Of a DNA stretch of 42,411 nucleotides, positions 10,877 through 37,005 are shown piece after piece (positions within the stretch are counted from its first letter, which is position 1; every line of letters begins with the position of its first letter). Under the pieces are notes generated by a model, which was not told the origin of the DNA, did not search any database, and saw only the letters and a list, made by a program, of their open reading frames with translations. Origin of the DNA: Pseudomonadota bacterium (GTDB lineage: Bacteria > Pseudomonadota > Gammaproteobacteria > Burkholderiales > Rhodocyclaceae); assembly GCA_021782315.1 (NCBI GenBank), contig JAJXVG010000006.1, positions 1 through 42,411 on the forward strand. Reading direction: 5' to 3'. The translations under genes were made by a program, and so were the position numbers.

Positions 10877-12505
10877 TCAGAGCCGGAACCTGCCGATCTG
10901 CTGCTTCAGGTTATTGGCGATAACTTCGAGTTGATGTGCCGTTTCCGAGGTGTCGCGGATTGTTCCTGTCGTTTCATCGACCATGTTGGCGATCTGCTCT
11001 ACGCGTTGGGCAATAGAGGTGCTGGTTGTGCTTTGCTCATGGGTGGAGTCGGCCACCTCTCCGATTCTGAGCAGGGTCCGGCGGGCACCGTCTTCGATGG
11101 CGCGCAGCGATTCGGTGGCTGAAGCGGCCAGCTGAACGCCTTCCTGAACCTCGGGCAATGCTGCATCCATGGCCTCCACTGCGCCGATGGTGTCGTTCTG
11201 GATACCGACGATCATCTGTTCGATTTCGGCGGTGGCCGCCGAGGTGCGTTCGGCCAGCTTGCGGACTTCGTCGGCGACGACGGCAAAGCCGCGGCCTTGC
11301 TCGCCGGCGCGCGCCGCCTCAATGGCTGCGTTGAGCGCCAGCAGATTGGTCTGGCCGGCGATGTCCTTGATTACGTTGGCGATCGAAGAAATTTGACTGG
11401 CCCGTTCTTCCAGGGCGCGGATACGGTTGGAGGCATTGCTCACCGTATCGGAAATTTTCTCGATGGCTTGCGATGCCTGTTGGACGCGGGCGGTGCCTTG
11501 TCCCGCCAGTTCGACCGCCTGATTCGAGTCGAGCGAGGTGTCGCGGGCGCTGTCCGAAATATGGTTCGAGCTGACGGTCAACTCTTCGATTGCCGCTGCC
11601 ATCGCCGAAGTGGCATCGGATTGTTGCTCGGCCGCACGCGATACTTCTGCCGAGGCTTGGGCTATTCTGGAGGCGTTGCTAACCAGGCTATTGGCATCGT
11701 TGTTGATCTCGCCGACCAAAGTACGCAGGGAAGCGACCATATTGGCCAATGCATGGAGCAGGCTTCCAGCCGGTGCGTTGTCGAGCGAAGCGGTCAAATC
11801 GCCACTGGCAACGCGTTCCATGATGGCGGTTGCCGCCGCCGGTTCTCCGCCGAGTTGGCGTACGATGCTACTGCCTACTTGCCAGCCTACCAGGCTCAGC
11901 AACAGTAACAATCCCAGCGAAATGCCGCCGAGGAGAATGGCTTCTCGCCGGAATTCGCTATCGACGTCGTCGATATAGATGCCGGTGCCGATCACCCAGC
12001 CCCAGAGAGCGAAATTGCCGACATAGGCGAGCTTCGGTTCCGGGGTGGTCTGGCCCGCCTTGGGAAACCAGTAATCGACGAAGCCACCGCCGGCCAGGGC
12101 TGTAGCGACGATCTCCTTCATCAGGAATTTACCCCGGGCATCCTTCATGTCGGCGACATCCTTGCCTTCGTTTTCCGGCTTGGGCGGAATCAGGATGTAG
12201 TGGTGGCTGTTGTCGAGAATGAAAAAATAATTGGTCTTGTCGTAACGTTGGGCGCGCAATGTTTCGATGGCCTGTTTCTTGGCTTCTTCCTCCGACATCT
12301 TTCCTGTTTCGACCTGCTTCTGGTGATAGGAAAGCACGCCCATCGCCGATTCGACCAGGGCTTGCGTCGTTTGTTTGCGATCCTCCAGCATGCCCGATTT
12401 CAATTGGAAGAGGGCGGTCAGGCATAGGCTCAGTAAACCGAGGAGCATCAGGCCAACCAATATCTGCATGCGTGTCGATACGCGCAGGGTATGCATTGAG
12501 TTCAT
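10877..12505 (-). CDS. Methyl-accepting chemotaxis protein with periplasmic Cache domain
   Basis: Two TM segments, [24 protein letters not shown] Cache-type sensor, signalling hairpin [47 protein letters not shown]. Confidence 0.95.
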
Positions 12506-12699
12506 ACGGGCTCCTCCGTTTTATGTTTTTCCTTGGATTCTAGTCTTGGATGGCAAGAAATGTGTAACTGCTTGCCGTGATGCAGGCGGATTTTTATTAC
12601 TAAAGTGGTAGTCATTCGGATAGGCGCAATATGCCACACGGGATTATGGTTTGGTGTTATTTTTACATTTAGCGTATTCCTCAAGGCGCAGTCTCTCGA

Positions 12700-17654: not shown

Positions 17655-17898
17655 GCGCTGCGCCGAGTTCCGGGCTGATCGACATGTTGAAATTGTATTG
17701 ATTTGTTACTTGTATTTTTTATTTGTTAAATGTTTTGTGTCGTTATTGGGGGCTGATTTTGCCGATATCCGGATGGCGGTTGAAAAACGAGCCAGCACTT
17801 TGTTTTGAAGCGATACGGTACCTTGGGTAAAATGATCGAAATACCGAGTGGCGCATGAGGCCAATGAATTCCTCCCGTTTTTTTTGCTGGTTACTCTT

Positions 17899-18846
17899 GT
17901 GAGCAATCTGATACAGGCGCGCCTGGACGAATTCAGGCAGCGGCGTCGCGTTCAGGCCGGATCGTTGATCATCACCGTTTTCGGCGATGCCGTTCTGCCG
18001 CGTGGCGGCCGGATCTGGTTGGGCAGCCTGATTCAATTGCTGGAGCCTCTGGCGCTCAATGAACGCCTGATTCGCACCTCGGTTTTCCGTCTCGTCAAGG
18101 AAGAGTGGCTGCGGGCGGAGTCCGTCGGTCGACGCGCCGAATACGCGCTCACCTCATCCGGCAAGCGGCGCTTCGAGGAGGCGGCGCAGCACATTTACGC
18201 CTCCAACGCACCGCTTTGGGATAGACGCTGGCGTCTGATACTGGCCGTTCGGGGCATGGATCCCAAGGTTCGCGAGCAGTTCAGGCGGGCCTTGTTCTGG
18301 CAGGGCTTCGGGGTATTGGGCGACGACTGCTTCGTGCATCCGAGCGCCGATCTGTCTAGCGTTTTCGATGCCCTGATCGCCGATGGCCTGTCCTCCGTCC
18401 TCGGCGGCCTGTTGCCGCTGTTCGCCGCCGATTCGCGTTTGGCGCAGTCGGCCAACGACGCTGACCTGGTGCGCCGGGCCTGGGATCTCGGCATCCTGGC
18501 CAACGCCTACCGCGAATTCGTCGCCTGCTATCAACCCATTCTCGACGAGATGCAACTGGATAGCCTGTTCGAAGTCAGCGAACAGGATGCCTTTTTGCTG
18601 CGCATCCTGCTCATCCACGATTACCGTCGATTGCTGTTGCGCGACCCGGAGTTGCCGGAGGTGTTGTTGCCGCCGAATTGGCCGGGTCAGAAGGCACGCC
18701 TGTTGTGCAAGGAACTGTACAAGCGCCTGGAACCGGTCTCCGCTCGCCATCTCGATCAATGGCTCTGCCTTGCAGACGGCCGGATTCCGGCGCAGGACGC
18801 CCTGCTCACCGAGCGCTTTCCGCAATACGACCCCTTGGGCGCCTAG
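17899..18846 (+). CDS. paaX: Phenylacetate catabolism transcriptional repressor PaaX
   Basis: [50 protein letters not shown], PaaX N-terminus; GTG start at 17899 in frame. Confidence 0.9.
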
Positions 18847-20444: not shown

Positions 20445-20461
20445 GTGCAACACTACACTAG
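20445..20461 (+). repeat. Short repeat tag GTGCAACACTACACTAG, copy 2
   Basis: Identical to 108..124; its CTA forms the minus-strand stop codon of the downstream enoyl-CoA hydratase gene. Confidence 0.85.
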
Positions 20462-21240
20462 CCCATCCAGCCCGCTGGTCGTTTGTCGAGGAAGGCTGAA
20501 ATGCCTTCCCTGGCTTCGTCCGTGGCCCGCTGGCGGGCGATGCGCAACGCTGTCTCCTCGCTCAGCCCGGCATCGATCGGGCGGCCGTTGACCGCCGCAA
20601 TCAGATCCTTGGCCGCCTTCTGGGCCTGCGGCCCGCCTGCGAGCAGGGCTTGGGTCAGGCGGTCGATGCAGGCGTCGAGCCGGTCGAGTTCGACGACCTC
20701 GCCAACCAGTCCGATGGCCAGGGCGCGTTCGGCGCTTATCCTTTCGGCGCTCTGGAAATAGCGCAGGGCATGCCGTGGGCCGATGGCGCGCAGGACGTAG
20801 GGGCTGATCGCGGAAGGAATGATGCCGAACCTGACTTCCGAGGTCGAAAACACCGCGTCGCTGCTCGCCACCGCCATGTCGCAGGCGGCGGTCAGGCCGG
20901 TGCCGCCGCCCAGTGCGGCCCCCTGCACGCGGGCGATGGTCGGTTTGCTCATTTCGGCCAAAGTACGAAGCATGCCGGCGAACTTGCGGGCGTCCTCAAC
21001 ATTCTGTTCATGGCTGAATTGTGCGGCGCGCTTCATCCAGTTGAGGTCGGCGCCGGCCGAAAAATGCTTGCCGCGACCGCCGAGGACGACGACGCGGACA
21101 GCCGCATCGGCGTCGAGGTCGAGACAGGCGGCGGCCAGCTCGGCAATCAACTGCTCGTCGAAGGCGTTGAAGACAGCCGGCCGGTTCATCCATACGGTGG
21201 CGACCTTGCCGACGCGTTCGATTTCCAGGGTTTGGTACAT
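20458..21240 (-). CDS. Enoyl-CoA hydratase/isomerase family protein (methylglutaconyl-CoA hydratase-like)
   Basis: Crotonase fold signatures FSAGADLNWMKR, ALGGGTGLTAACDMAVAS, FGIIPSAISPYV. Confidence 0.88.
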   Translation of the reverse strand: MYQTLEIERVGKVATVWMNRPAVFNAFDEQLIAELAAACLDLDADAAVRVVVLGGRGKHFSAGADLNWMKRAAQFSHEQNVEDARKFAGMLRTLAEMSKPTIARVQGAALGGGTGLTAACDMAVASSDAVFSTSEVRFGIIPSAISPYVLRAIGPRHALRYFQSAERISAERALAIGLVGEVVELDRLDACIDRLTQALLAGGPQAQKAAKDLIAAVNGRPIDAGLSEETALRIARQRATDEAREGISAFLDKRPAGWMG

Positions 21241-21251: not shown

Positions 21252-22025
21252 TCAGCGGTTCCTGAATACCGGCTTGCGTTTTTCGACGAAGGCGGCCATG
21301 CCCTCCTTCTGGTCCTCGACCGCGAAGGCGGCGTGGAAGACGCGACGTTCGAAGAGCAGGCCTTCGTTCAGTGAAGATTCGAAGGCGCGGTTGACCGATT
21401 CCTTGATCATCATGACTACCGGCAGCGAGTAGCCGGCAATGGTCTGCGCCGCCTTCAGGGTTTCGTCGAGGAGTTGATCGGCCGCTATGACGCGGGCGAC
21501 CAGGCCGGACTTCTCGGCTTCGGCGGCGTCCATCATCCGCCCGGTCAGGCAGAGGTCCATCGCCTTGGCCTTGCCGACGGCGCGCGGCAGGCGTTGTGTG
21601 CCGCCGGCCCCGGGCAGGGTACCGAGCTTGATTTCGGGCTGGCCGAATTTGGCGCTATCGGCGGCGAAGATCATGTCGCACATCATCGCCATCTCGCAGC
21701 CGCCGCCCAGGGCGAAGCCGGCCACCGCGGCGATGACCGGCTTGCGTGCCGTCTTGATCCGTTCCCAGTTGCGGGTGATGAAATCGGTCCGATAGGCGTG
21801 CATGTAGTCGAAATCCTTCATGAAGCCGATATCGGCGCCGGCGGCGAAAGCTTTCTCGTTGCCGGTGACGACGATGCAGCCGATGGCGTCGTCGGCTTCG
21901 AAAGCGTCGATGGCGGTGGCGATGCCGTCGACCACGTCATTGTTCAGTGCATTCATCGCTTCCGGGCGGTTGATGCGGATCAGGCCGACTTTGCCGATTA
22001 CTTCGGTGAGGACTACGGGGTTCAT
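21252..22025 (-). CDS. paaF: Enoyl-CoA hydratase, PaaF-type
   Basis: [74 protein letters not shown] at 22025 with GGAG. Confidence 0.88.
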
Positions 22026-22033
22026 GGCTAACT

Positions 22034-22074
22034 CCAAAAAAATGACCGCCCCCCGAGGGAGCCGCGGGGCGGTC
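22034..22074 (-). terminator. Rho-independent terminator downstream of the binding-protein gene, abutting the paaF RBS
   Basis: Minus strand gaccgccccgcg-gctccct-cggggggcggtc stem (one mismatch) followed by ATTTTTTT then GGAG. Confidence 0.85.
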
Positions 22075-22198: not shown

Positions 22199-23344
22199 TC
22201 ACTGGACGATGGTCCAGTCGCCGCCCTTCACTTCGAGCAGGCGGAAAGCCGACAGGTCGAGGCCCATGTGGTCGCTGGCCGACATGTTGTAGGTGCCGCT
22301 GGTGCCGACGAAGCCCTTGGTAGCTTCGATGGCGTCGCGGACCTTGGCCTTGTCGGTCGAACCGGCGCGCTTGATGGCGTCGACCGCCAGCATCAGGCCG
22401 TCGTAGGCATAGCCGCCGAAAGTCGATACCTCCTGTTTGTAGGCTGTCTTATAGGTGTTCTCATAGGCGGTCACGACCGGTTTCTGCGGATCCTTGGCGG
22501 CCAGTTTTCCGGGAATCAGTTGGGCCGGGGAGGGCAGGCGGACGCCTTCGGCCGCCGGGCCGGCCAGCTTCAGGAATTCGTCGGAGGCCACGCCGTGCGA
22601 CTGGTAGAGCGGCAGGTTCATGCCCAGTTGCTTGAAGTTCTTGGTGACGATGGCCGGCCCCTGGCCGAGACCGAAGACGAATACCGCCTGGACTCCCGGC
22701 GTGTTCTTGATCTTGGTCAGTTGCGGGCTCATGTCGGTATCCTTGGGGCCGTAGGTCTCGTTGGCCACCAGCGTGATCCCGTACTTGGCGGCGACGCCTT
22801 CCGTTTCCTTCTTGCCGGACTGGCCGAAGCCCGAGGTTTCGGAGAGCAGGGCGACCTTGCTCAAACCGCGTTTTTTCATGTCTTCGAAGACCTTTTCGGC
22901 CGCCATGCGGTCGGTATGCGGCGTCTTGAAGACAAATTTCTTGACCGGCTCGACAATGACGACGGCGCCCGCCAGGGAGATGAAAGGGGTGCCGGATTTT
23001 TCGGCCAGCGGCGCCATGGACATGGTGGCGCCAGTGGTGGTGCCGCCGACCATCAGGTCGACCTTGTCGTCCTCGAGCAGGCGCTTGGCAAAGCCGTTGG
23101 CCTTGTTGGCATCGCTACCGTCGTCGTAATGGACCAGTTGCAACTGGCGGCCGAGGACGCCGCCCTTCTTGTTCAGTTCGTCAACGTACAGTTGCAGGGT
23201 CTTCAGCTCCGGGTCGCCGAGAAAGGCGGCCGGGCCGGTGACGGAGAGGACGGAGCCGATCTTGATCGGATCGGCTGCCAGGGCGCCAAAGGCGCCAAGC
23301 GTCAAGGCAGCGGCGGCAACGAGCTTCTTCATGCTGTGCTTCAT
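22199..23344 (-). CDS. Branched-chain amino acid/aromatic-type ABC transporter periplasmic binding protein (LivJ/K family)
   Basis: Signal peptide MKHSMKKLVAAAALTLGAFGALA; DPIKIGSVLSVTGPAAFLGDPELKTLQLYVDELNKKGGVLGRQLQLVHYDDGSD. Confidence 0.92.
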   Translation of the reverse strand: MKHSMKKLVAAAALTLGAFGALAADPIKIGSVLSVTGPAAFLGDPELKTLQLYVDELNKKGGVLGRQLQLVHYDDGSDANKANGFAKRLLEDDKVDLMVGGTTTGATMSMAPLAEKSGTPFISLAGAVVIVEPVKKFVFKTPHTDRMAAEKVFEDMKKRGLSKVALLSETSGFGQSGKKETEGVAAKYGITLVANETYGPKDTDMSPQLTKIKNTPGVQAVFVFGLGQGPAIVTKNFKQLGMNLPLYQSHGVASDEFLKLAGPAAEGVRLPSPAQLIPGKLAAKDPQKPVVTAYENTYKTAYKQEVSTFGGYAYDGLMLAVDAIKRAGSTDKAKVRDAIEATKGFVGTSGTYNMSASDHMGLDLSAFRLLEVKGGDWTIVQ

Positions 23345-23373
23345 GGGTTTGTCTCCTTTATTGATATATGTGG

Positions 23374-24579
23374 TCAGACACGCTCGATCACCATGGCGAT
23401 CCCTTGCCCAACACCGATACACATGGTGCACAGGGCGTAGCGACCGCCACGGCGTTTGAGTTCATAGGCGGCGGTGGTGATCAGGCGGGCGCCGCTCATG
23501 CCGAGCGGATGCCCCATGGCGATGGCGCCGCCGTTGGGATTGACGTGGGCGGCATCGTCGGCCAGCCCGAGATCGCGGAGGACGGCCAGACCCTGGGCGG
23601 CAAAGGCCTCGTTCAGTTCGATGACGTCCATCTGGTCCAGCCTCAGGCCGGTCCTGGCCAGCACCTTGCGTACCGCCGGAGCCGGGCCGAAGCCCATGAT
23701 CCGGGGCAGGACGCCGGCGGTCGCCATGCCGACGACGCGGACCAGCGGGGTCAGCCCGTGGCGGCCGGCCGCGGCCGGCGAGGCCAGCAACAGGGCGCAG
23801 GCGCCGTCGTTGACGCCGGAGGCGTTGCCGGCGGTGACCGAGAGTTCGGGTCCATTGACCCCCTTGAGCTTGGCCAGCATGTCCAGCGTCGTTTCCGGAC
23901 GCGGGTGTTCGTCGGTATCGATGACCAGCGGCTCGCTCTTTTTTCGGGGAATGAGCACCGGCACGATTTCGTCCTTGAAGCGGCCGGCGGCGTGGGCGGC
24001 CGCCCAGCGCTGCTGCGAGCGCAGCGCGAAGGCGTCCTGGTCGGCGCGGCCGACGGCGAAGTCGGCCGCCACGTTGTCGGCCGTCTGCGGCATCGAGTGG
24101 GTGTCGTACAGCTTTTTCATGGCCGGGTTGACGAAGCGCCAGCCGATGGTCGTGTCGTAGATCGCCGCCTGGCGGGAATAGGCGCTTTCCGCCTTGGCCA
24201 TGACGAAGGGGGCGCGCGACATGCTTTCGACGCCGCCGGCCAGCATCAATTCGGTTTCGCCCGACTTGATCGAACGGGCGGCGAGGCCGACGGCATCCAT
24301 ACCCGAGCCGCACAGGCGGTTGACGGTGGTACCCGGCACTTCGATCGGCAGCCCGGCGAGCAGGCCGGACATGCGGGCGATATTGCGGTTGTCTTCGCCG
24401 GCCTGGTTGGCGCAGCCGTAGATGATGTCCTCGACGGCCGTCCAGTCGACCTGCGGATTGCGCTCGATCAGCGCCTTGAGCGGGACGGCGCCGAGATCGT
24501 CGGCGCGCACGCCGGCCAGGGCGCCGCCGTAACGGCCGATGGGGGTACGGATGGCATCGCAGATAAAGGCTTCGTTCAT
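23374..24579 (-). CDS. paaJ: Acetyl-CoA acyltransferase/3-oxoadipyl-CoA thiolase
   Basis: TTVNRLCGSGMDAV, VNPNGGAIAMGHPLGMSGARL, CIGVGQGIAMVIERV; PcaF/PaaJ type. Confidence 0.9.
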   Translation of the reverse strand: MNEAFICDAIRTPIGRYGGALAGVRADDLGAVPLKALIERNPQVDWTAVEDIIYGCANQAGEDNRNIARMSGLLAGLPIEVPGTTVNRLCGSGMDAVGLAARSIKSGETELMLAGGVESMSRAPFVMAKAESAYSRQAAIYDTTIGWRFVNPAMKKLYDTHSMPQTADNVAADFAVGRADQDAFALRSQQRWAAAHAAGRFKDEIVPVLIPRKKSEPLVIDTDEHPRPETTLDMLAKLKGVNGPELSVTAGNASGVNDGACALLLASPAAAGRHGLTPLVRVVGMATAGVLPRIMGFGPAPAVRKVLARTGLRLDQMDVIELNEAFAAQGLAVLRDLGLADDAAHVNPNGGAIAMGHPLGMSGARLITTAAYELKRRGGRYALCTMCIGVGQGIAMVIERV

Positions 24580-24589: not shown

Positions 24590-25915
24590 TCAATTCTGCT
24601 TCGGACGTTCGTCGAGTACGCGCTTGGCCTTGCCGGTCAGCGTGCGGGGAATGGAGTCGTGTTCCATCAGCGTGATCCGCGTCGAGATGCCGATGATGGT
24701 CTTGATGCGATGCTGCAGTTCCTTGCCGATGGCCTGGATTTCGTTCGGCGCCAGTCGGCCGGACAACTCGCGCTGCAACTCGCAGCGGACTTCGACATTA
24801 TCCAGATGACCGTCGCGGCTGACCAGTATCTGGTAGGTGCCGGCCAAGCGCTTGTCGCGCAGTATCTGCTCCTCGATCTGGGTCGGGAAGACGTTGACGC
24901 CGCGGATGATCAGCATGTCGTCGGAACGGCCGGTGATCTTGTCGATGCGGCGGAAGGAGCGGGCGGTCGGCGGCAGCAGGCGGGTCAGGTCGCGGGTGCG
25001 GTAGCGGATGACCGGGAAGGCTTCCTTGGTCAGCGAGGTGAACACCAGTTCGCCTTCCTCGCCGTCGGGCAGCACTTCGCCGGTATCCGGATCGATGATC
25101 TCCGGGTAGAAGTGGTCCTCCCAGATGACCGGGCCGTCCTTGGTCTCGATGCATTCGCTGGCGACGCCGGGGCCCATCACTTCGGTCAGGCCGTAGATGT
25201 CGATGGCGTCGATGCCGAGCTTGCGTTCGATCTCGCTGCGCATGCCCTGGCCCCAGGGTTCGGCGCCGAAGATGCCGACCTTGAGGGAAATGTCCTCGGG
25301 CTTGATGCCCAGGCGCTCGAATTCCTCGGCGATGACCAGCGAATAGGAGGGGGTGACCATGATGATCTCGGGCCTGAAATCCATGATCTGCTGCACCTGC
25401 TTTTCGGTCTGCCCGCCGGATATCGGCACCGCGCAGCAGCCGGCGCGCTCGACGCCGTAGTGGGCGCCGAGGCCGCCGGTGAACAGGCCGTAACCGTAGG
25501 CGACATGGACCATGTCGCCGGGACGGCCGCCGGCGGCGCGAATCGAACGGGCGACGACGGAGGCCCAGTTGTCGATGTCGTTGCGGGTGTAGCCGACGAC
25601 GACCGACTTGCCTGTGGTGCCCGACGAGGCGTGGAGGCGGGCCAGCTGGGTGCGGGGCACGGCGAAAAGGCCGAAGGGGTAGTTGTCGCGCAGATCCAGC
25701 TTGGTCATGAAGGGGAACTTGCCGAGATCGCCCAGGGTTTTAAGGTCGTCCGGATGGACGCCCTTTTCCAGGCACTTGCGGCGGTAGGGTTCGACGTTGT
25801 CGTAGCAGTGGCGCACAGACCACTTCAGGCGTTCGAGTTGCAACGCCGAAATTTCATCGCGGCTGGCGGTTTCGATCGGATCGAGATCGCCGGTCTGAGG
25901 TTTCTTGACGGTCAT
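24590..25915 (-). CDS. paaK: Phenylacetate-CoA ligase
   Basis: LHASSGTTGKSVVVGYTRNDIDNWASVVARSIRAAGGRPGDMVHVAYGYGLFTGGLGAHYG, RTRDLTRLLPPTARSFRRIDKITGRSDDMLIIRGVNVFPTQIEEQIL. Confidence 0.96.
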   Translation of the reverse strand: MTVKKPQTGDLDPIETASRDEISALQLERLKWSVRHCYDNVEPYRRKCLEKGVHPDDLKTLGDLGKFPFMTKLDLRDNYPFGLFAVPRTQLARLHASSGTTGKSVVVGYTRNDIDNWASVVARSIRAAGGRPGDMVHVAYGYGLFTGGLGAHYGVERAGCCAVPISGGQTEKQVQQIMDFRPEIIMVTPSYSLVIAEEFERLGIKPEDISLKVGIFGAEPWGQGMRSEIERKLGIDAIDIYGLTEVMGPGVASECIETKDGPVIWEDHFYPEIIDPDTGEVLPDGEEGELVFTSLTKEAFPVIRYRTRDLTRLLPPTARSFRRIDKITGRSDDMLIIRGVNVFPTQIEEQILRDKRLAGTYQILVSRDGHLDNVEVRCELQRELSGRLAPNEIQAIGKELQHRIKTIIGISTRITLMEHDSIPRTLTGKAKRVLDERPKQN

Positions 25916-25945: not shown

Positions 25946-26410
25946 CTAATCGGCCTGCTCCAGACCGGCGATGACTTCGCCGGCGATGCGGTAGCTCTTG
26001 CCCCGGAACAGGGCGATGGTCTTGCCGCCGGCGGTACGCACCGTGACGTCGTAGACGCCGGTGCGACCGGAGGCGGATTGTTCGACGGCTTCGGCCTCCA
26101 GAGTCTCGCCCTCCCTGGCCGGGGCCAGGAAGTCGATATGGCAGGCGGAGGCGACGGTGTTCCTGTTATAGCTGTTGCAGGCATAGGCGAAGGCGGTGTC
26201 GGCCAGGCTGAAAATCATGCCGCCGTGGCATATGTGGTGGCCGTTGACCATGTCGGAACGGACCGTCATGTCGAGCCGGGTGGCGCCCGGTTCGATGCGG
26301 ACGATCCTGATGCCGAGCGCCTGGGCCGCGCGGTCGCGCGGCCACATCGCCGCAGCGGTGGCTTCGGCCAGTGCCTGTGCTTCGGCGGGGGAGGGTTTAT
26401 GTTCAGTCAT
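25946..26410 (-). CDS. paaI: Hotdog-fold hydroxyphenylacetyl-CoA thioesterase
   Basis: MVNGHHICHGGMIFSLADTAFAYACNSYN; SGRTGVYDVTVR. Confidence 0.92.
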   Translation of the reverse strand: MTEHKPSPAEAQALAEATAAAMWPRDRAAQALGIRIVRIEPGATRLDMTVRSDMVNGHHICHGGMIFSLADTAFAYACNSYNRNTVASACHIDFLAPAREGETLEAEAVEQSASGRTGVYDVTVRTAGGKTIALFRGKSYRIAGEVIAGLEQAD

Positions 26411-27932
26411 GGATGTTTCTTCCGGCAAATACGGCACGCTGGATCAGCGGGGAGATGCGATAGCGGTCTTCGCCATAGCTGCCGCCGAGATTGGCCAGCA
26501 CCTCGCGGATGCGCTCGACGCCGACCCGGTCCGCCCAGGCCAGCGGCCCCAGCGGGTAATTGACGCCGAGGCGCATGGCCGAGTCGGCCGCCGCTTCGGA
26601 ACAGACCCCCTGGTTCACGGCGTCGGCCGCTTCGTTGGCAAGCATGGCAAGGCTGCGCATGACGGCCAGCCCGGGGACGTCGAGGAAGCGCGAAACGGCG
26701 AAGCCGGCTGCCTGCAGCAGGCCGATGGCGGCCGAGATGGCGCTCGGCTCGCACTGCTCGGCGGCGGCGATGGCGAGGCGGCTGGCCTGGTTGTAGTCGA
26801 GCGCGAGGTCGATCAGCACGGTGTTGGCGATGCCGCTTTGGTGGGCGCGTTGCGTCGCGCTGCGGCCGTCCGTGACGAAGATCGTGGCGCGGCCGATTTC
26901 GGCGACCCGGCCATCGGTTTCGGGGGCGCGACCGAAGGACAGGCGGCTGTGCTCGAGCCGTTCGGCCAGCGCTTCGGCGACGGTCGACTCGCCGAAGACG
27001 GTGATCTTGCCGGCCGGCGCCTGGGCTGCTTCGGTCTGCGGCTGGGGACGTTGGGCGCCTTCGCGGTAGTCGTAGAAACCGCGTCCGCTCTTCCTGCCCA
27101 GGAATCCGGCATCGACCAGTTCCTGCTGGAGCAGCGACGGCAGAAAACGGGGGTCGTTATAGAAGGCGCGCCAGACCGAGCCGGTCACGGCGAAATTGAC
27201 GTCGTGGCCGATCATGTCCATCAGCTCGAAGGGGCCCATGCGGAAGCCGCCGGCCTCGCGCATGACGGCATCGATGGTGGCGTAGTCGGCGGCGCCCTCC
27301 TGGGCCAGGCGCAGGGCCTCGGCGTAGTAGGGGCGGGCGACGCGATTGACGATGAAGCCGGGGGTCGACCTGGCGTGCACCGGGGTCTTGCCCCAGGCGG
27401 CGGCGGTGGCGAACAGTGTGTCGGCAACGGCCCGGTCGGTGGCCAGGCCGGAAACGATCTCGACCAGTGCCATGAGCGGCGCCGGGTTGAAGAAATGCAG
27501 GCCGGCCAGTCGTTCCGGGCGTTGCAGCGCGGCGCCGATGGCAGTCACCGAGATCGACGAGGTATTGGTGCCGAAGATACAGTCGGGCGCGACGATGGCT
27601 TCGAGGTCGGCATATAGCTTCTGCTTGGCTTCGAGGTTTTCGACGATGGCCTCGACGACCAGCGCGCAATCGACCAGGTCGGAGAGCTGCCCGGCCGCCA
27701 GCAGGCGGTGGCCGGCGGCTTCGGCGGCGGCTGCCGTCATCCGTCCTTTTTCGGCCAGCTTGGCGAACTGGCCGCGAATGCCGGCGATGGCCCTGTCGGC
27801 CGCGCCCGGGCGATTGTCGAGCAGCTTGACCGGGTGGCCGGCCGCCGCCGCGATCTGGGCGATGCCGGCGCCCATGGCGCCGGTGCCGACGACGGCGATG
27901 ATCGCCTGTTGGGGGAGGGTTGTGTTGCTCAC
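26403..27932 (-). CDS. paaH: 3-hydroxyacyl-CoA dehydrogenase
   Basis: AIIAVVGTGAMGAGIAQIAAAAGHPVKLLD Rossmann motif; LAGLHFFNPAPLMALVEIV; GTG start at 27932. Confidence 0.92.
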   Translation of the reverse strand: MSNTTLPQQAIIAVVGTGAMGAGIAQIAAAAGHPVKLLDNRPGAADRAIAGIRGQFAKLAEKGRMTAAAAEAAGHRLLAAGQLSDLVDCALVVEAIVENLEAKQKLYADLEAIVAPDCIFGTNTSSISVTAIGAALQRPERLAGLHFFNPAPLMALVEIVSGLATDRAVADTLFATAAAWGKTPVHARSTPGFIVNRVARPYYAEALRLAQEGAADYATIDAVMREAGGFRMGPFELMDMIGHDVNFAVTGSVWRAFYNDPRFLPSLLQQELVDAGFLGRKSGRGFYDYREGAQRPQPQTEAAQAPAGKITVFGESTVAEALAERLEHSRLSFGRAPETDGRVAEIGRATIFVTDGRSATQRAHQSGIANTVLIDLALDYNQASRLAIAAAEQCEPSAISAAIGLLQAAGFAVSRFLDVPGLAVMRSLAMLANEAADAVNQGVCSEAAADSAMRLGVNYPLGPLAWADRVGVERIREVLANLGGSYGEDRYRISPLIQRAVFAGRNIHD

Positions 27933-27936
27933 GCTT

Positions 27937-28731
27937 TCACTCTCCGGTGAACTTCGGGGCGCGCTTCTCCATGAAGGCGGCGACCCCCTCGGCGTAGTCC
28001 GGACTCCAACCCAGTTCGCGCATGAAGCCGCCCTCCAGCGACAACTGCTGCTCCAGCGTGTGGCCCGGCGCGGCATGCATGGCCTGACGGGTGCGCACCA
28101 GCGCCTTGGTCGGCGCGGTCGATAGTTGCTTGGCCAGGGTGTCGATGCGGGCGGCAAAATCGGCATCCTCGGCGCATTCCCAGATCAAACCCCATTCGGC
28201 GGCTTTCTCGGCAGGCAGTTTGTCGGCGAGCAGGGCGAGGCCCATGGCCCGGGCCATGCCGACGCGTTGCGGCAGGAACCAGGTGCCGCCGGTATCCGGG
28301 ATCAGGCCGATCTTGGAAAAGGCCTGCAGGAAGGAAGCCGACCGGCTGGCGACGACCAGGTCGCAGGCCAGGGCGAGCGAGGCGCCGGCCCCGGCGGCGA
28401 TGCCGTTGACCGCCGCGATGGTCGGCACGCGCAGGTTCTGCAGGCGGAGTATCAGCGGTTTGTAATTGCGTTCGACGACATTGCCGATGTCCGGCATCCG
28501 GCCGGCTATCATCTGCATCTCCGGATCGGCCAGGTCCTGGCCGGCGCAGAAGGCGCGGCCGGCGCCGCTGAGGACCAGGACGCGGACGGCCGGGTCGTTC
28601 TGGACCATGTCCAGAACGACGCGCAATTCGTCATGCATCTCGCCGGTGAAGCTGTTCAGCTTGTCGGGACGGTTCAGCGTCAGGCGGGCAATGCCGGTGT
28701 CGACGGTAAAGGTGATGGTCTGGAAATTCAT
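27937..28731 (-). CDS. paaG: 2-(1,2-epoxy-1,2-dihydrophenyl)acetyl-CoA isomerase
   Basis: FCAGQDLADPEMQMIAGRMPDIGNVVERNYKPLILRLQNLRVPTIAAVNGIAAGAGASLALACDLVVASRSASFLQAFSKIGLIPDTGGTWFLPQRVG. Confidence 0.93.
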   Translation of the reverse strand: MNFQTITFTVDTGIARLTLNRPDKLNSFTGEMHDELRVVLDMVQNDPAVRVLVLSGAGRAFCAGQDLADPEMQMIAGRMPDIGNVVERNYKPLILRLQNLRVPTIAAVNGIAAGAGASLALACDLVVASRSASFLQAFSKIGLIPDTGGTWFLPQRVGMARAMGLALLADKLPAEKAAEWGLIWECAEDADFAARIDTLAKQLSTAPTKALVRTRQAMHAAPGHTLEQQLSLEGGFMRELGWSPDYAEGVAAFMEKRAPKFTGE

Positions 28732-28740: not shown

Positions 28741-30408
28741 TCAGATATGGTAGCGGCGTTGGACGACGACGAATCGATTGGCGACGAAGGCGGCGTCGGC
28801 ATAGGAAGCATTGGCTGCCGGGTTGCCGCCGGTGCCATGGTAGTCGGAGTAGGCGGCCGACTGGTTCACGAAGACGCCGCCGCTCAGGTTGATCGAAAGG
28901 GCGACCTTGGAGCGCAGCGTGGCGGCGGTCATCGCGTCGATCACCTCGGCCCTGGTCGAATAGATGCCGGCGGTCAGGGCGCCATGCGTCGTCACGATGC
29001 GCTCGGAGAGGGCGATGGCTGCCGCCGTGTCAGCCACCTTGACGATGAAGCTGATCGGGCCGAAACGCTCTTCCATGTAGGCCTTTTCGTCGGCGGCATC
29101 GCAGGCGAGGAGGACCGGGGTGCGGACTTCCGCCTTCGGGAACTCCGGGTTGTCGAGCTTGCCCGAAGCGAGGACGACCTTGCCCAGTGCGCCGCTGTCG
29201 GCTTCGGCGATACGTTTCAGGGTATCGGTCGATTGCACGGCGCCGAGCACGGCCAGCGCGACTTCCGGTTTGGCCAGGAAAGCGGAGACGGCGCCGGCGA
29301 GGTCGGCGCAGACCTCGTCGTAGGATTTGTGGCCGTCTTCCGTTTCGACGCCGCCGGCCGGGACGAAAATGGCCTGCGAGGTGGTGCACATCTGGCCGGA
29401 ATAGAGCGCCAGGGAGAAGGCCAGGTTGCCGAGCATGCGCTTGTAGCTGTCGGTGGAATCGACCACGATGTTGTTGACCCCGGCCAGTTCAGCGTAGACG
29501 CGGGCCTGGCGGCAGTTGTCGATAAGCCATTGGCCAAAGACATTGCCGCCGGTGAAGTCGATCGACTTGACGGCCGGGTGGGTGACCAGGGCTTGTGTCG
29601 TGCTCCGCTGGCCGGCGACGCACAGGCTGACCAGATTGGGGTCTATACCGTTTTCGGCGAGCACCCGGCGGATGGTGCGTACCGTAATGGCGGCCGGCAG
29701 GATGGCGTTGCCGTGCGGCTTGACGATGACGGCGTTGCCGGTGGCCAGCGCGGCGAACAGGCCGGGGTAGGTGTTCCAGGTCGGGAAGGTGCCGCAGCCG
29801 ACGACGACGCCGACGCCATGGCCGACAATTTCGAAATGCTTCTTCATGACCAGCGGCGGGTTCTTGCCCTGGGGTTTTTCCCAAGTCGCTTCGGCCGGTA
29901 CGAAGCTCTGCTCCCGCCAGGCGTAGGCAACCGCTTCCAGGCCGCGCTCCTGGGCATGCGGCGCGCCGGCCTGGAAAGCCATCATCCAGCCTTGGCCGGT
30001 GGTCATCATGACGGCGTGGGCGATTTCAAAACTCTGGGCATTGAGTCGTGCCAGGATCTCCAGGCAGAGGCCGGTGCGCCCGGCGGCGCCAAGCTTCTGC
30101 CAGCCGTTCATGGCTTGTTGCCCGGCGGCGATCAGCGCTTCGTGGTCGCAGACCGGGTATTGCACGTCGAGGGTTATGCCGTAGGGCGACTGCTCGCCAC
30201 CCTGCCAGCCGGACTGGCCGGGCTGGTCCAGTTCGAATCGTTGGCCGAGATGGGCCTCGAAAGCCTTCTTGCCGTCCTCGGCAGCTGTTTCGCCGTAAAC
30301 CTTGGGGCTTGGCATTTCACTATAAGCCGACCAGTAAGCGCGGGTCTGGATGGCATTCAGGGCGCCATCGAGCGTGGCGCGGTGCTTGTCGAGCAGGGGC
30401 TGGGACAT
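28741..30408 (-). CDS. paaN: PaaN-type aldehyde dehydrogenase (ring-opening aldehyde oxidation), lacking an evident MaoC hydratase domain
   Basis: ALDH signatures GCGTFPTWNTYPGLFAALATGNAVIVKPHG, SIDFTGGNVFG, YSGQMCTTSQAIFVP; 555 aa. Confidence 0.88.
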   Translation of the reverse strand: MSQPLLDKHRATLDGALNAIQTRAYWSAYSEMPSPKVYGETAAEDGKKAFEAHLGQRFELDQPGQSGWQGGEQSPYGITLDVQYPVCDHEALIAAGQQAMNGWQKLGAAGRTGLCLEILARLNAQSFEIAHAVMMTTGQGWMMAFQAGAPHAQERGLEAVAYAWREQSFVPAEATWEKPQGKNPPLVMKKHFEIVGHGVGVVVGCGTFPTWNTYPGLFAALATGNAVIVKPHGNAILPAAITVRTIRRVLAENGIDPNLVSLCVAGQRSTTQALVTHPAVKSIDFTGGNVFGQWLIDNCRQARVYAELAGVNNIVVDSTDSYKRMLGNLAFSLALYSGQMCTTSQAIFVPAGGVETEDGHKSYDEVCADLAGAVSAFLAKPEVALAVLGAVQSTDTLKRIAEADSGALGKVVLASGKLDNPEFPKAEVRTPVLLACDAADEKAYMEERFGPISFIVKVADTAAAIALSERIVTTHGALTAGIYSTRAEVIDAMTAATLRSKVALSINLSGGVFVNQSAAYSDYHGTGGNPAANASYADAAFVANRFVVVQRRYHI

Positions 30409-30789
30409 CGGGGGGTCTCCTTGAGTATGTCTTGTTTGGGCGGGCGCCCAGGTGGCGCTTCCGATCTGTGGCAACGATACTAATAGTACTGCATGATGTC
30501 AAATGTTGGTATCACGTAAACGATATTTGTTTGTTGTTATGTTTAGCGAAAATTGTTCCTTGCATTGTATATACATGAATAAAAACAATATGTTAAATAT
30601 TTAAATTACATTGATTGTTTGTTGTATTCTGTATGGCGTAAATAGTTCCTTGATAACTTTTTCTGTAAACGATACTAAAAATGTTGACACACTTCGATGT
30701 TGTGTATCATTATCGGTCTTGCCCCATCCGTGCATCCGGATGGATCATCAACCCGATGACAAGACTTGGATCGAAAAGGAGACATAGAC
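30409..30789. promoter_or_regulatory. AT-rich divergent promoter/operator region between paaN and the diiron oxygenase gene
   Basis: Sharp local AT rise; repeated GTAAACGATA (30516..30525, 30665..30674) and AACGATACT (30473..30481, 30668..30676); TTGACA at ~30684. Confidence 0.6.
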
Positions 30790-31818
30790 ATGGCCAGTAA
30801 CAAGGAACGTTTTGCAGACAAGATGGAGTTTCCGCCGGCAACGCCGCAGCCGAACATCTATCCGCTGTCCTGGAACAGCAAGACCAAGAAGCTTCAGGAA
30901 GTATGGGAAGCCGCGCTGCGCGAGAACTGGGATCCGGAAAAGCTCCCCTGGGACACCCTGGATGTCGACAGCTACTCCTGGGAAGAGCGCGAATCCATCG
31001 CCTACTGGTGGAGCCTGCTGTCGGTGTTCGACGCTTCCGCGCCGCCCGTTTTCGCCGAAGCGCTGATCAAGACCTACGAGGTGCACGAGGAGGACCCGGT
31101 TCGCAAGTGTTTCTTCTCGGTTACCCGCGACGAACAGAATCACGAAATCATGTGCGGCCTGGCCATCACCAAGATGCTCGGCCACCCGGACCCGCTGACC
31201 TACGTGCCGAAGACCGAACTGGGCAAGCGCCTGCAGAAGAACGTGCAGTGGCTGTACTTCAATGGCGGCCGTTACTGGACAGGCTACAAGCAGGCGGTGC
31301 CGAAGTACGACCTGGCCGTGCTGTTCAGCTCTTTCCTGATGGGCGAGATCGCCGCCGCCACCATCTTCAAGCAGATGTTCGACAATTCCCGTGAAGCGGT
31401 ATTCAAGGAGGGATTCAAGAATATCGGTCGTGACGAAGGCCGTCACATGGCCATCTGCATGGCGGTCATGGAGCGCGACTACCCGGGCCTCGACGAATCG
31501 ACCAAGGCCATCGTCACCAAGCAGATTCGCGCCGGCTATCTTTTCCTGTCGGCCGTGCTCTTCGAGCCGCCGATGGAATTCTGGGACCTGCCGTCCGACT
31601 TCATCGCCAACCAGCGCGAAGCCGAGGAGGTCGCCCGCGGCGCCGGCTTCGGCATTCCGACCTACGAGGCCAAGCTGGAAAACTGGAGAAATGCGATGAT
31701 CAACCTGAAGGGCGTGCTCGATCGCTACAACATCCCCTTCCCGGCCATCCCCGAAGTCGGCATCACCGGTCAGGAAGTTTCGGAAATCGACATGGAAGAC
31801 ATCATCCCGGTCTTCTAA
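30790..31818 (+). CDS. Ferritin-like/ribonucleotide reductase-like diiron carboxylate oxygenase, substrate unknown
   Basis: Helical protein with two ExxH-type motifs: ...FFSVTRDEQNHEIMCG and ...FLMGEIAAATIF...NIGRDEGRHMAICMAV. Confidence 0.75.
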   Translation: MASNKERFADKMEFPPATPQPNIYPLSWNSKTKKLQEVWEAALRENWDPEKLPWDTLDVDSYSWEERESIAYWWSLLSVFDASAPPVFAEALIKTYEVHEEDPVRKCFFSVTRDEQNHEIMCGLAITKMLGHPDPLTYVPKTELGKRLQKNVQWLYFNGGRYWTGYKQAVPKYDLAVLFSSFLMGEIAAATIFKQMFDNSREAVFKEGFKNIGRDEGRHMAICMAVMERDYPGLDESTKAIVTKQIRAGYLFLSAVLFEPPMEFWDLPSDFIANQREAEEVARGAGFGIPTYEAKLENWRNAMINLKGVLDRYNIPFPAIPEVGITGQEVSEIDMEDIIPVF

Positions 31819-31820
31819 AT

Positions 31821-31851
31821 TAGTGTAGGTGCTGCAAGCAGCACTACACTA
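31821..31851 (+). repeat. Inverted-repeat hairpin carrying the CACTACACTAG tag
   Basis: tagtgtaggtgctgc-aa(loop)-gcagcactacacta, ~14-bp stem with one bulge, 3 nt after the diiron gene stop. Confidence 0.85.
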
Positions 31852-31874
31852 GCCATCGCTAGATAATGGCGTCC

Positions 31875-31902
31875 GGCCGGGGCCCCGTCAGGGGTTCCGG
31901 CC
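31875..31902 (+). terminator. Second intercistronic hairpin between oxygenase and reductase genes
   Basis: ggccggggcccc-gtca-ggggttccggcc, 10 of 12 paired. Confidence 0.5.
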
Positions 31903-31942
31903 TTGCCGCAAAGAAAAGAACTCAGACAACAGGAAGAAGAAA

Positions 31943-32992
31943 ATGGCCCGTATCATCATGCAGCCCTCTGGCAAGTCCGTAGACTGCGCCTATGGCGATA
32001 CCGTTCTGATGGCGCTCGAAAAAGCCGGCTACGCCCTGCCCAACAACTGCCGCGCCGGCGCCTGCGGCGAATGCAAGGTCAAGGTCACGGGCGGTCAGTT
32101 CGATCAGGGCATGGTGCTCGACATGGCCTTGTCGCAGGATGAGCGCAAACAGGGGTACGGTCTGATGTGCATGGCCAAGCCGATTTCCGAAGAACTGACC
32201 ATCGAGTGGGGCACCGAGGATGCCAAGCCCAAGCTCTTCCCGCCGCGCGAGGATGCGCTCTTTGTGGTCGTCGACAAGAAGCGGATCGCCGCCCGTGTCG
32301 TCGAGTTGCGCCTGCGTCCGGTCGGTCAGCCAATCCGTTACTGGCCAGGCCAGTACGTGACCCTCGGCAATCCGCGTGCCGACATTCCGGCACGCGCCTA
32401 TTCCATTTCCAACGCGCCGCGCCCGGATGGCGAACTGGTGCTGCAGGTCGCCCGCGCCGACGGCGGCGTCACCAGCAACTGGGTTCACGACCAGCTGACC
32501 CTGGGCGAAAGCGTCAAGATTTCCGGTGCCTACGGCACCTTTATCGGCGATCCCTCGGTCGATACGCCGGTGCTGTGCATCGCGGCCGGTACCGGCCTGG
32601 CGCCCGTGCTTGCCCTGGCCGAAGCGGCGCTGCGCAGAGGTTACAAGAAGCCGGTGACGATGCTCTTCTCGGCCCGTACCCGGGACGATGTCTATAGCCA
32701 GGGCATGATGTCCTGGTGGCGGACCAAGCATCGCAGTTTCGACTACAAGGTGACGCTGACCCGCGAAACGGCCGACGGTTTCCTGCAGGGGCGGATCGAT
32801 GTCGTGCTGCCGCAACTATTCAAGGATTTGTCGAAGCACACCATCTTCGTTGCCGGCAGCCCGGAATTCGTCAATAGTGCCGTCGCTGCAGCCAAGGCCC
32901 AGGGCGCACTGGACGAGTTGATCCATACCGAGGGTTTCTTCGCCCAGCAACAACCCGTGGTGGCCGATGCCGCGCATCTGCTGCCGGGCTGA
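31943..32992 (+). CDS. 2Fe-2S ferredoxin/FAD/NAD(P)H oxidoreductase (class I oxygenase reductase-like)
   Basis: NNCRAGACGECKVKV...GLMCMAKP plant-type 2Fe-2S; RAYSISNAP flavin motif; CIAAGTGLAPVLALAEAAL nucleotide-binding motif. Confidence 0.92.
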   Translation: MARIIMQPSGKSVDCAYGDTVLMALEKAGYALPNNCRAGACGECKVKVTGGQFDQGMVLDMALSQDERKQGYGLMCMAKPISEELTIEWGTEDAKPKLFPPREDALFVVVDKKRIAARVVELRLRPVGQPIRYWPGQYVTLGNPRADIPARAYSISNAPRPDGELVLQVARADGGVTSNWVHDQLTLGESVKISGAYGTFIGDPSVDTPVLCIAAGTGLAPVLALAEAALRRGYKKPVTMLFSARTRDDVYSQGMMSWWRTKHRSFDYKVTLTRETADGFLQGRIDVVLPQLFKDLSKHTIFVAGSPEFVNSAVAAAKAQGALDELIHTEGFFAQQQPVVADAAHLLPG

Positions 32993-33102: not shown

Positions 33103-33978
33103 ATGCTGTCGCAGTTCTTGCAGTTTTTATTTTCCGGGGTGACGGTAGGGGCGACCTACGCACTGGCGGCCCTGGGTTTCACGCTGATATACAACGCGAG
33201 CAACGTGATCAATTTCGCCCAGGGCGAATTCATCATGCTCGGCGGCATGCTGGCGGTGTTCTTCACCCAGGCCGGTCTGCCTTTGCCGGTGGCCTTGCTG
33301 CTCGCCATGCTGATTCCGGCCGCGGTCGGCGTGCTCATCGAAAAACTGGCCATCGAACCGGTCAAGGGCGCCGAGCCGGTTACCCTGATCATCATCACCA
33401 TCGGTGCCTCGCTGGTCATCCGCGGCCTGACAGCCGTCATTTTCGGCAAGGGAACGCACAGCCTGCCCGCCTTCTCCGGCGACACGCCGATCGAGATCCT
33501 GGGCGCCACGCTGCTGCCGCAGAGCCTGTGGGTGCTCGGCATCACCGCCCTGGTCGTCGTCCTGCTCTGGTATTACTTCAACCGCACCTTGCAGGGCAAA
33601 GCCATGCTCGCCACCTCGTTCAACCGGCTGGCTGCCGAACTGGTCGGCATCAATACCAGCTGGGTGCTGTTCATGAGTTTCGCCATGTCGGCGGCGCTCG
33701 GCGCCCTGGGTGGCATCCTGATCACGCCGATCACGCTGACCTCCTACGACGTCGGCATCATGCTCGGTCTCAAGGGTTTCGTCGCCGCCGTGCTCGGCGG
33801 CCTGGGCAACGGTCTGGGCGCCGTGGTCGGCGGCTTGCTGGTCGGCATTCTCGAAGCGATGGGAGCGGGCTACATCTCCTCGGCCTACAAGGACGCCATC
33901 CCTTTCGTGCTCATCCTGTTCATTCTCTTCTTCATGCCGCGCGGCTTGTTCGGCGGCCAATCGACGGATCGGGTGTAA
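33103..33978 (+). CDS. livH: Branched-chain amino acid-type ABC transporter permease LivH
   Basis: GVTVGATYALAALGFTLIYNASNVINFAQGEFIMLGGM. Confidence 0.95.
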   Translation: MLSQFLQFLFSGVTVGATYALAALGFTLIYNASNVINFAQGEFIMLGGMLAVFFTQAGLPLPVALLLAMLIPAAVGVLIEKLAIEPVKGAEPVTLIIITIGASLVIRGLTAVIFGKGTHSLPAFSGDTPIEILGATLLPQSLWVLGITALVVVLLWYYFNRTLQGKAMLATSFNRLAAELVGINTSWVLFMSFAMSAALGALGGILITPITLTSYDVGIMLGLKGFVAAVLGGLGNGLGAVVGGLLVGILEAMGAGYISSAYKDAIPFVLILFILFFMPRGLFGGQSTDRV

Positions 33979-33980
33979 GC

Positions 33981-34913
33981 ATGCCAAAGAACGTCTATCG
34001 CGGTCTCTACCTGGTCATCGCCATTTTGCTGGTGCTGCCCCACGTCCTGCCCAACAGCTATTACCTCGATCTGGCAGTGCGTATGGCGATCAATGCCGTC
34101 ATCGTCCTCGGCCTCAACCTGCTGATCGGCTTCGCCGGCCAGATCAGTCTCGGCCACGCCGGTTTTCTCGGCATCGGCGCCTACGCCTCGGCGGTCCTGC
34201 CCACCCATTTCGGCTGGCATCCGCTTGCCGCCATGGGTGCCGGCGCCCTCGCCGCCGGTCTTCTTGCCGCCCTGGTCGCCCGGCCGATTTTCAAGCTCAA
34301 GGGCAATTACCTGGCGATGGCGACTCTCGGTCTCGGCATCATCATCAGCATTGCGCTCAGGAACGAGGCGCAGTGGACCGGTGGGCCGGACGGCATGCCG
34401 GTGCCGTCGATGGGCCTGTTCGGCTTCGAACTGAGCAACGACCGGCAGTGGTACTGGGTCGTCGCGCTGCTGCTCTCGGTCTCGGTCTGGGCCTCGCTGA
34501 ACCTGATCGACTCGCCCTTCGGCCGTGCCCTGCGCGCCCTGCACGGTTCCGAAGTCGCCTCGCAGGTGGTCGGTGTTGACATCGTCCGCTACAAGGTGGC
34601 CATCTTCGTCCTCTCGGCCGTCTTCGCCAGCCTGATGGGCAGCATCACGGCGCACTACGTCGGTTTCGTCAGTCCCAACTATGCCGATTTCTTCCACTCC
34701 ATCGAACTGGTCACCATGGTCGTCATCGGCGGCATGGCCTCGGTTTACGGTTCGCTGGTCGGTGCCGTGCTGCTCACCGCCCTGCCGCAGGCGCTGGCCA
34801 CCTTCGAAGGTTGGGAAACGGTGGTTTTCGGCGCCATTCTCATGCTCTGCATGATCTTTTTGCCGAAAGGCCTGGTGCCGACCCTGGCGGCCAAATTCGG
34901 AAAGGGCGAGTGA
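33981..34913 (+). CDS. livM: Branched-chain amino acid-type ABC transporter permease LivM
   Basis: LNLLIGFAGQISLGHAGFLGIGAYASAVL; FKLKGNYLAMATLGLG; ELVTMVVIGGMASVYGSLVGA. Confidence 0.95.
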   Translation: MPKNVYRGLYLVIAILLVLPHVLPNSYYLDLAVRMAINAVIVLGLNLLIGFAGQISLGHAGFLGIGAYASAVLPTHFGWHPLAAMGAGALAAGLLAALVARPIFKLKGNYLAMATLGLGIIISIALRNEAQWTGGPDGMPVPSMGLFGFELSNDRQWYWVVALLLSVSVWASLNLIDSPFGRALRALHGSEVASQVVGVDIVRYKVAIFVLSAVFASLMGSITAHYVGFVSPNYADFFHSIELVTMVVIGGMASVYGSLVGAVLLTALPQALATFEGWETVVFGAILMLCMIFLPKGLVPTLAAKFGKGE

Positions 34914-34915
34914 CC

Positions 34916-35677
34916 ATGTCCATGCTCGAAGTCAAGGACCTCTCCATCCATTTCGGCGGCGTCAAGGCAGTCCAGAACGTCAGCTTCGCCATCGACCCCG
35001 GCATCGTCTACTCGGTGATCGGTCCCAACGGGGCCGGCAAGACGACCCTGTTCAACCTGATCACCGGCGTCTACAAGCCGAGTGCCGGCGAAATCCGGCT
35101 CGACGGCGAAGCCATTCACGGCAGGTCGCCGAACGAACTGGCTCGGCGCGGCGTCGCCCGCACCTTCCAGAATCTGCAGATATGCATGAACATGAGCGCC
35201 CGGGAAAACGTCATGGTCGGTGCCCACCTGCGACTTGACCGCAATCTGCTCAAGGCTGCGCTGCATTTGCCCGGATTGAGGAAGCGCGATGCCGAATTGC
35301 GCGACGAAGCGGCCGAACTGATGCGCTTCGTCGGTCTTGAGCAATACGTCGAGGCCAGGGCCGATGCGATGTCCTACGGCCTGCTCAAGCGCCTGGAAAT
35401 CGCCCGGGCGCTGGCGATGAAGCCGCGCCTGATCTTCCTCGACGAACCGGCCGCCGGACTCAACCCCAAGGAAACCATCGAGGTCGACCAACTGGTCCGC
35501 AAGATCGCCGATGCCGGTGTCACTGTCGTCCTCGTCGAACACGACATGAAGATGGTCATGAACCTGTCCGACCGCATCCTCGTGCTCAACTACGGCAAGA
35601 AACTGGCCGAAGGCACGGGCGAGGAGATCCGCCGGAACCCGGACGTGATCGCCGCCTACCTGGGCGCCCACGCTTAA
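34916..35677 (+). CDS. livG: ABC transporter ATP-binding protein LivG
   Basis: GPNGAGKTTLFNLITGVYKPSAGEIRLDG, FLDEPAAGLNPKE. Confidence 0.95.
   Translation: MSMLEVKDLSIHFGGVKAVQNVSFAIDPGIVYSVIGPNGAGKTTLFNLITGVYKPSAGEIRLDGEAIHGRSPNELARRGVARTFQNLQICMNMSARENVMVGAHLRLDRNLLKAALHLPGLRKRDAELRDEAAELMRFVGLEQYVEARADAMSYGLLKRLEIARALAMKPRLIFLDEPAAGLNPKETIEVDQLVRKIADAGVTVVLVEHDMKMVMNLSDRILVLNYGKKLAEGTGEEIRRNPDVIAAYLGAHA

Positions 35678-35688: not shown

Positions 35689-37005
<1,317 letters not shown>

Follow-up and report, generated by a model that had tools for sequence, protein, structure and literature searches.

Aerobic degradation of phenylacetate is taken to depend on PaaABCDE, the five-gene enzyme that opens the pathway. 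What, then, attacks the ring in a bacterium that carries a phenylacetate cluster without this enzyme? The question is raised by a contig (JAJXVG010000006.1, assembly GCA_021782315.1) from a Rhodocyclaceae bacterium, of which the whole analyzed stretch of 42,411 nucleotides is referred to here as the window. Divergent from paaN in this window lie two genes, one encoding a diiron protein of 342 residues (DII) and one a reductase of 349 residues (RED), which an earlier sequence-only reading had singled out as an uncharacterized oxygenase-reductase pair; inspection of the open reading frames finds both, on the plus strand and at the positions that it gave (Table 1).

A phenylacetate cluster and its missing oxygenase

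The paa set of the window comprises PaaX, PaaY, PaaK, PaaI, PaaH, PaaG, PaaN and a thiolase, the key members of which score above the NCBIfam equivalog cut-offs. Reading away from DII, the minus strand carries paaN, paaG, paaH, paaI, paaK, the 3-oxoadipyl-CoA thiolase gene, livK and two crotonase genes; paaY and paaX follow. The crotonase-family gene that ends the cluster, whose oxepin_alt score is well under the cut-off, is a possible oxepin-CoA hydrolase. The oxepin-CoA hydrolase profile NF046063 found no match, in a search in which no control matched either.

Table 1. Features of the window discussed in the text, with positions counted from its first nucleotide
Feature	Position	Strand	Evidence or remark
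paaX repressor	17848..18846	+	TIGR02277 275 bits, cut-off 265
Crotonase-family protein	20458..21240	-	oxepin_alt 160 bits, cut-off 300
Enoyl-CoA hydratase, paaF candidate	21252..22037	-	Profile search
livK-type substrate-binding protein	22199..23431	-	Homology in related loci
paaJ/pcaF, 3-oxoadipyl-CoA thiolase	23374..24579	-	TIGR02430 715 bits, cut-off 597
paaK, phenylacetate-CoA ligase	24590..25915	-	TIGR02155 699 bits, cut-off 646
paaI thioesterase	25946..26437	-	TIGR02286, above cut-off
paaH, 3-hydroxyacyl-CoA dehydrogenase	26403..28049	-	TIGR02279 684 bits, cut-off 669; listed span begins upstream of the likely start codon
paaG, 1,2-epoxyphenylacetyl-CoA isomerase	27937..28731	-	TIGR02280 367 bits, cut-off 345
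paaN (PaaN_2/PacL-type semialdehyde dehydrogenase without MaoC domain)	28741..30420 (end approximate)	-	TIGR02288 885 bits, cut-off 579
Second candidate PaaX operator, GATAC-N28-GTATC, over divergent paaN promoter	30476..30513		TTGACA at 30502, minus strand
Candidate PaaX operator, GATAC-N28-GTATC, over DII promoter	30671..30708		TTGACA at 30684; second hexamer ends at 30713
DII, R2-like diiron oxygenase (putative), 342 aa	30790..31818	+	ATG start; likely ligands D81, E115, H118, E186, E216, H219
DII-RED intergenic region with two strong RNA hairpins	31820..31902	+	Window z -4.7
RED, class IB-type reductase, N-terminal 2Fe-2S then FAD and NAD domains, 349 aa	31943..32992	+	ATG start
livH, livM, livG transporter genes	33103..35677	+	Downstream of RED
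livF-type ATPase fused to N-terminal hemerythrin domain	35689..37005	+	Single open frame, 438 aa

The key fact for the reading of this locus is that PaaABC is missing from the host genome. This genome, a 3.39 Mb metagenome-assembled genome (MAG) that is 89% complete and has Dechloromonas-like genomes as its closest matches, yields no match to PF05138 (PaaA/PaaC, hereafter PaaAC) and no PaaB. BoxB, considered as the missing ring oxygenase, was rejected, being absent from the host genome as well. Loss of PaaABCDE through incompleteness of the MAG was rejected on the strength of three single-contig relatives (G077, G079 and G288) and of a test for PaaB, which is also absent from 22 of 22 genomes without PaaAC, both positive controls being matched. 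The partner subunits of the PaaABCDE complex, PaaB and PaaC, are thus found neither in the host nor in the PaaAC-less genomes tested.

Downstream of RED lie the transporter genes livHMGF. An N-terminal hemerythrin (HHE) domain is fused to the LivF-type ABC ATPase, and a similar N terminus occurs in a Rhodoferax locus (L059); the fusion suggests a coupling of oxygen or iron sensing to transport, as far as its domain content can tell.

The diiron protein and its reductase

The motifs of DII are RDEQNHE (E115xxH118), MGE (E186) and RDEGRH (E216xxH219). The sequence-only reading had listed them and had named their loss in an alignment as grounds for abandoning the idea; D81, E115, H118, E186, E216 and H219 are in fact invariant in 85 of 85 DII homologues, and all six are kept even in homologues of only 49-51% identity. 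D81, which was missing from that list, is most likely the first-helix ligand, as judged from its invariance and from the helix pairing and geometry of the predicted structure; E90, also in the first helix, is not conserved. DII thus shows the four-helix core and six ligands of the ferritin-like or R2-like diiron carboxylate superfamily, in a model of moderate quality. This model (AlphaFold2; mean pLDDT 83.6, pTM 0.83) is built on a shallow alignment.

As the sequence-only reading had remarked, DII is unlike PaaA and BoxB. The single Pfam match of DII is to AurF (PF11583) and lies below threshold (E 1.7e-4, 21.3 bits against a gathering cut-off of 29.6); with two further DII members the scores are 21.3, 23.3 and 25.2 bits, all under 29.6, with E from 1.7e-4 to 1.1e-5. 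The Pfam search gives no match to PF05138, hhalign against PaaA is negative (0.6-0.7% probability), BoxB (TIGR03225) shows no match up to an E of 1, no NCBIfam model is matched above its cut-off, and searches of the PDB by sequence or profile return nothing significant. The best matches in a fold search with the DII model are the R2 subunit of ribonucleotide reductase (RNR) and R2lox, with a modest fit (E about 1e-3, TM about 0.55-0.66, rmsd mostly >7 Å). Since hhalign comparisons with PaaA and with NrdB are both empty, the link to R2 comes from the fold search only. Wherever an annotation was seen, DII is labeled a hypothetical protein. No phage relatives were found. A homologue in Nonomuraea gerenzanensis (L083), 49% identical, conserves the ligands and has no recognizable reductase or paa genes within 10 kb.

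RED has the architecture that had been read from its sequence, with a plant-type CxxxxCxxC...C cluster at the N terminus followed by FAD (RAYSI) and NAD domains; Pfam places Fer2 at residues 7-80, FAD_binding_6 at 110-200 and NAD_binding_1 at 213-313. This is the order of a class IB-type oxygenase reductase. The proposed pairing of the two proteins is likewise borne out, far beyond chance, as RED follows DII in 79 of 79 loci whose contig continues. The two hairpins between the genes possibly set the stoichiometry of DII to RED, perhaps by lowering RED relative to DII; several relatives also have a GC-rich hairpin.

Distribution, neighborhoods and operators

The distribution of the pair was followed in three sets of genomes. 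In the first, 37 genomes of the same genus were scored for PaaN_2, DII and PaaAC. DII occurs in 22 of the 23 genomes with PaaN (one PaaN_2 being a fragment at a contig edge), while the 14 genomes without PaaN have neither DII (0/14) nor PaaAC (0/14); a Fisher test of PaaN against DII gives 2.5e-9, not corrected for phylogeny. Ten of the PaaN-containing genomes lack PaaAC, two of them single-contig (G077 and G079), and all ten have DII. The sole PaaN-containing genome without DII (G071) has PaaAC, so DII can be dispensed with where PaaABCDE occurs.

The second set consists of 47 genomes with DII and partly overlaps the first, as both hold Dechloromonas relatives. True PaaAC is missing in 20 of the 47, and in all 20 of these DII lies beside PaaN and PaaG; in the remaining 27 PaaABCDE and DII-RED occur together. 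Solo DII-RED operons are found in 11 genomes, all 11 of which have PaaAC (p 0.001). On the DII tree, which is weakly resolved, the presence of PaaAC changes at least 11 times, so the pattern recurs and does not reflect one inherited loss. About 40% of the tested genomes with DII yielded no candidate ring oxygenase other than DII-RED.

In the third set, of 250 genomes at the level of the order, 24 have a PaaN-type gene, accompanied by PaaAC in 16, by DII in five (one has both) and by neither in four. These four (G270, G331, G180 and G294) break a strict rule that PaaN implies PaaA or DII, which was rejected. G331 has no PaaG beside PaaN, the PaaN-like proteins of G180 and G294 score near or below the family cut-off, and G270 has a divergent PaaA-like protein in its paa cluster. 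The latter locus (L102, G270:C8:144001-164000) holds, between paaN and paaG at 11332-12662, a divergent PaaA/PaaC-family protein of 265 residues and a flavodoxin-like gene, with a GATAC-N28-GTATC site at 11823, in a genome without PaaB and DII; on its gene content this arrangement is a third paa variant.

As many bacteria have the remaining pathway genes and the pair but no PaaABCDE, our analysis suggests that DII-RED can replace that enzyme. We think it likely that the pair is a two-component phenylacetyl-CoA 1,2-epoxidase, non-orthologous to PaaABCDE, for which it serves as a backup or a substitute. With somewhat less assurance, although still favoring the idea, we extend this to an unrecognized R2-like epoxidase that has taken over from PaaABCDE repeatedly in the Beta-, Gamma- and Alphaproteobacteria, and whose 50%-identical relatives would form a wider family of aryl-CoA oxygenases associated with PaaN-type ring-opening pathways.

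In other lineages the pair stands within or next to paaABCDE, or in Variovorax beside paaN, and this favors the epoxidase. Marinospirillum celere has paaFGHIJK-DII-RED-paaABCDE, all on one strand; two loci (L050 and L057) have DII-RED-paaX divergent from paaABCDE; Paraburkholderia has a solo DII-RED-paaX; and in the Rhodoferax locus DII-RED-paaX is followed by two open reading frames that by eye resemble subunits of indolepyruvate ferredoxin oxidoreductase. A plasmid of Vitreoscilla filiformis combines paaABCDE and DII-RED in one cluster adjoined by hpa genes, with the pair between paa and hpa. On a Variovorax paradoxus plasmid (CP063167.1, L082) a 51% identical pair lies beside paaN in a separate catabolic cluster, together with a ligase, a CoA transferase, a thiolase with an OB-fold protein, a MaoC-type dehydratase, an indolepyruvate ferredoxin oxidoreductase and a Liv transporter; going by these genes, the cluster perhaps degrades some other substrate by an aryl-CoA route.

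The main weakness of the epoxidase reading is the presence of PaaABCDE in over half of the genomes with DII: the pair may act on another or a further substrate, or may work over another oxygen range. DII-RED could accordingly be an arylacetyl-CoA oxygenase for another compound (substituted phenylacetyl-CoA, hydroxyphenylacetyl-CoA or indoleacetyl-CoA) whose product is processed by PaaG and PaaN, the paa genes of PaaAC-less strains serving that compound and not phenylacetate. The 27 of 47 genomes with both systems, the Variovorax cluster with its own ligase, CoA transferase, thiolase, MaoC protein and indolepyruvate ferredoxin oxidoreductase, and the position of the pair in V. filiformis are all in its favor; however, PaaK and PaaG of this window pass the phenylacetate-specific equivalog cut-offs and the promoters carry PaaX/PaaR-type operators, and we regard such a restriction to other compounds as unlikely.

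These operators are recognized by their sequence. Both divergent promoters of the window carry an inverted repeat with a spacer of the length (27-28 bp) characteristic of the PaaX regulon. Of 85 loci, 50 have a GATAC..GTATC pair upstream of DII, whereas such a pair turns up in 148 of 4920 random windows and in 22 of 1700 shuffled upstream regions. Its spacer upstream of DII is nearly always 27 or 28; across all loci there are 81 such pairs with a spacer of 28, 21 with 27, 13 with 26 and 0-4 with any other. PaaX of E. coli binds TGATTC(N27)GAATCA (PMC9493321), and GATTC-N27-GAATC is seen at E. coli paaA, the known PaaX site (PMC9493321). The spacing of 27 or 28 matches that of E. coli, whereas the half-site is GATAC instead of GATTC. 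The GATAC-N27/28-GTATC site is common to the solo DII-RED operons of Paraburkholderia and Achromobacter, and those of Pseudothauera have a PaaR-like palindrome, which in these genomes recurs at the paaN promoter. By its predicted operators, DII-RED thus appears to belong to the phenylacetate regulon, solo operons at a distance from the cluster included, with binding of PaaX suggested by spacing and neighborhood.

Shared control would also suit an oxygenase acting upstream, which would form phenylacetate or phenylacetyl-CoA by side-chain or ring hydroxylation of another compound and be co-regulated with paa since its product enters the pathway. The paa link, by position or operator, is nearly always present, upstream pathways can stand under PaaX control (as stated in PMC2770484), and the nearby Liv genes could import a precursor; but this would leave ten same-genus and 20 other genomes with PaaG and PaaN and without a ring oxygenase, which makes it distinctly improbable. 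The sequence-only reading had allowed for either a ring-activating or a side-chain-oxidizing system feeding PaaK and PaaG. Its first half, a ring-activating system feeding PaaG, finds good support in the phyletic pattern, the synteny and the shared operators; side-chain oxidation is not favored, because 20 of 47 DII genomes keep PaaG and PaaN without PaaAC and the ring-epoxidation step would otherwise be unfilled. A protective or maintenance enzyme (removing peroxide or epoxide, or an R2lox-like oxidase), which the R2/R2lox-like fold and the frequent presence of PaaABCDE might recall, is very improbable for a pair that is retained where PaaABCDE is absent and has a dedicated class IB-type electron donor.

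Proposed function and comparison with known systems

The activities of PaaK, which makes phenylacetyl-CoA, and of PaaG, PaaN, PaaF, PaaH and the thiolase are well established for these families. As a phenylacetyl-CoA epoxidase, DII-RED would probably act after PaaK, in place of PaaABCDE. RED, from its domain order, would take a hydride from NAD(P)H and pass single electrons through FAD and the 2Fe-2S cluster to the diiron center of DII, which once reduced would activate O2 and add a single oxygen atom to the C1-C2 bond of the phenylacetyl-CoA ring. Isomerization of this epoxide by PaaG would yield oxepin-CoA, which would pass down the rest of the pathway through PaaN, PaaF, PaaH and the thiolase, all identified by their genes. 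Probably PaaX, or in other lineages a TetR repressor of the PaaR type, represses the pair through the operators at the DII promoter, and phenylacetyl-CoA would relieve this repression. Alongside PaaABCDE, DII-RED possibly serves another oxygen range or substituted phenylacetyl-CoAs, which is speculation.

In the open-access literature, to which the search was confined, no account of DII-RED came up, and neither did growth data on phenylacetate for PaaAC-less strains. A 2026 survey of 6,536 genomes proposed that PaaA and PaaC mark the pathway robustly and selected its genomes on them (PMC13186573), so it could not have seen the PaaAC-less genomes with DII. If the proposed function is correct, it contradicts this use of PaaA and PaaC (PMC13186573): the marker rule would miss many bacteria, among them the cultured Dechloromonas denitrificans, Azonexus hydrophilus, Castellaniella caeni, Insolitispirillum peregrinum and Brachymonas denitrificans. 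There is precedent for hidden variation in the phenylacetate pathway in the alternative oxepin-CoA hydrolase (PMC9007349). If the proposal holds, DII-RED would dearomatize a CoA-bound ring with a much simpler enzyme, and evolution would offer a second solution for comparison with PaaABCE and BoxAB.

With the PaaABCE phenylacetyl-CoA 1,2-epoxidase, DII-RED shares the proposed reaction, the position in the pathway, the gene neighbors, diiron chemistry and PaaX/PaaR-type operators. However, DII has no detectable profile similarity to PaaA and is one hydroxylase protein in place of PaaA, PaaB and PaaC, and the domain order of RED, with its N-terminal 2Fe-2S cluster, is opposite to that of PaaE, where the cluster is C-terminal (PMC4498308). 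The BoxAB benzoyl-CoA 2,3-epoxidase likewise combines a single diiron protein with a separate reductase and acts on an aryl-CoA, as proposed for DII-RED; yet DII does not match BoxB, RED has a 2Fe-2S cluster whereas BoxA carries two 4Fe-4S clusters (PMC4498308), and the partners are PaaG and PaaN instead of BoxC and BoxD. The N-oxygenases AurF and CmlI (PF11583) show a weak profile match to DII over the diiron core, which is under the cut-off in the three proteins scanned, and DII is linked to CoA-thioester catabolism and not to amine oxidation. R2lox and ribonucleotide reductase R2 have the closest folds and the same ligand order (Asp/Glu, ExxH, Glu, ExxH), but are only 11-18% identical to DII, which has no RNR partner and has a dedicated 2Fe-2S/FAD reductase. 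Finally, the MmoC, toluene monooxygenase and BenC-type reductases share the domain order of RED, whereas RED itself falls far below each of their NCBIfam equivalog cut-offs and stands constantly behind DII.
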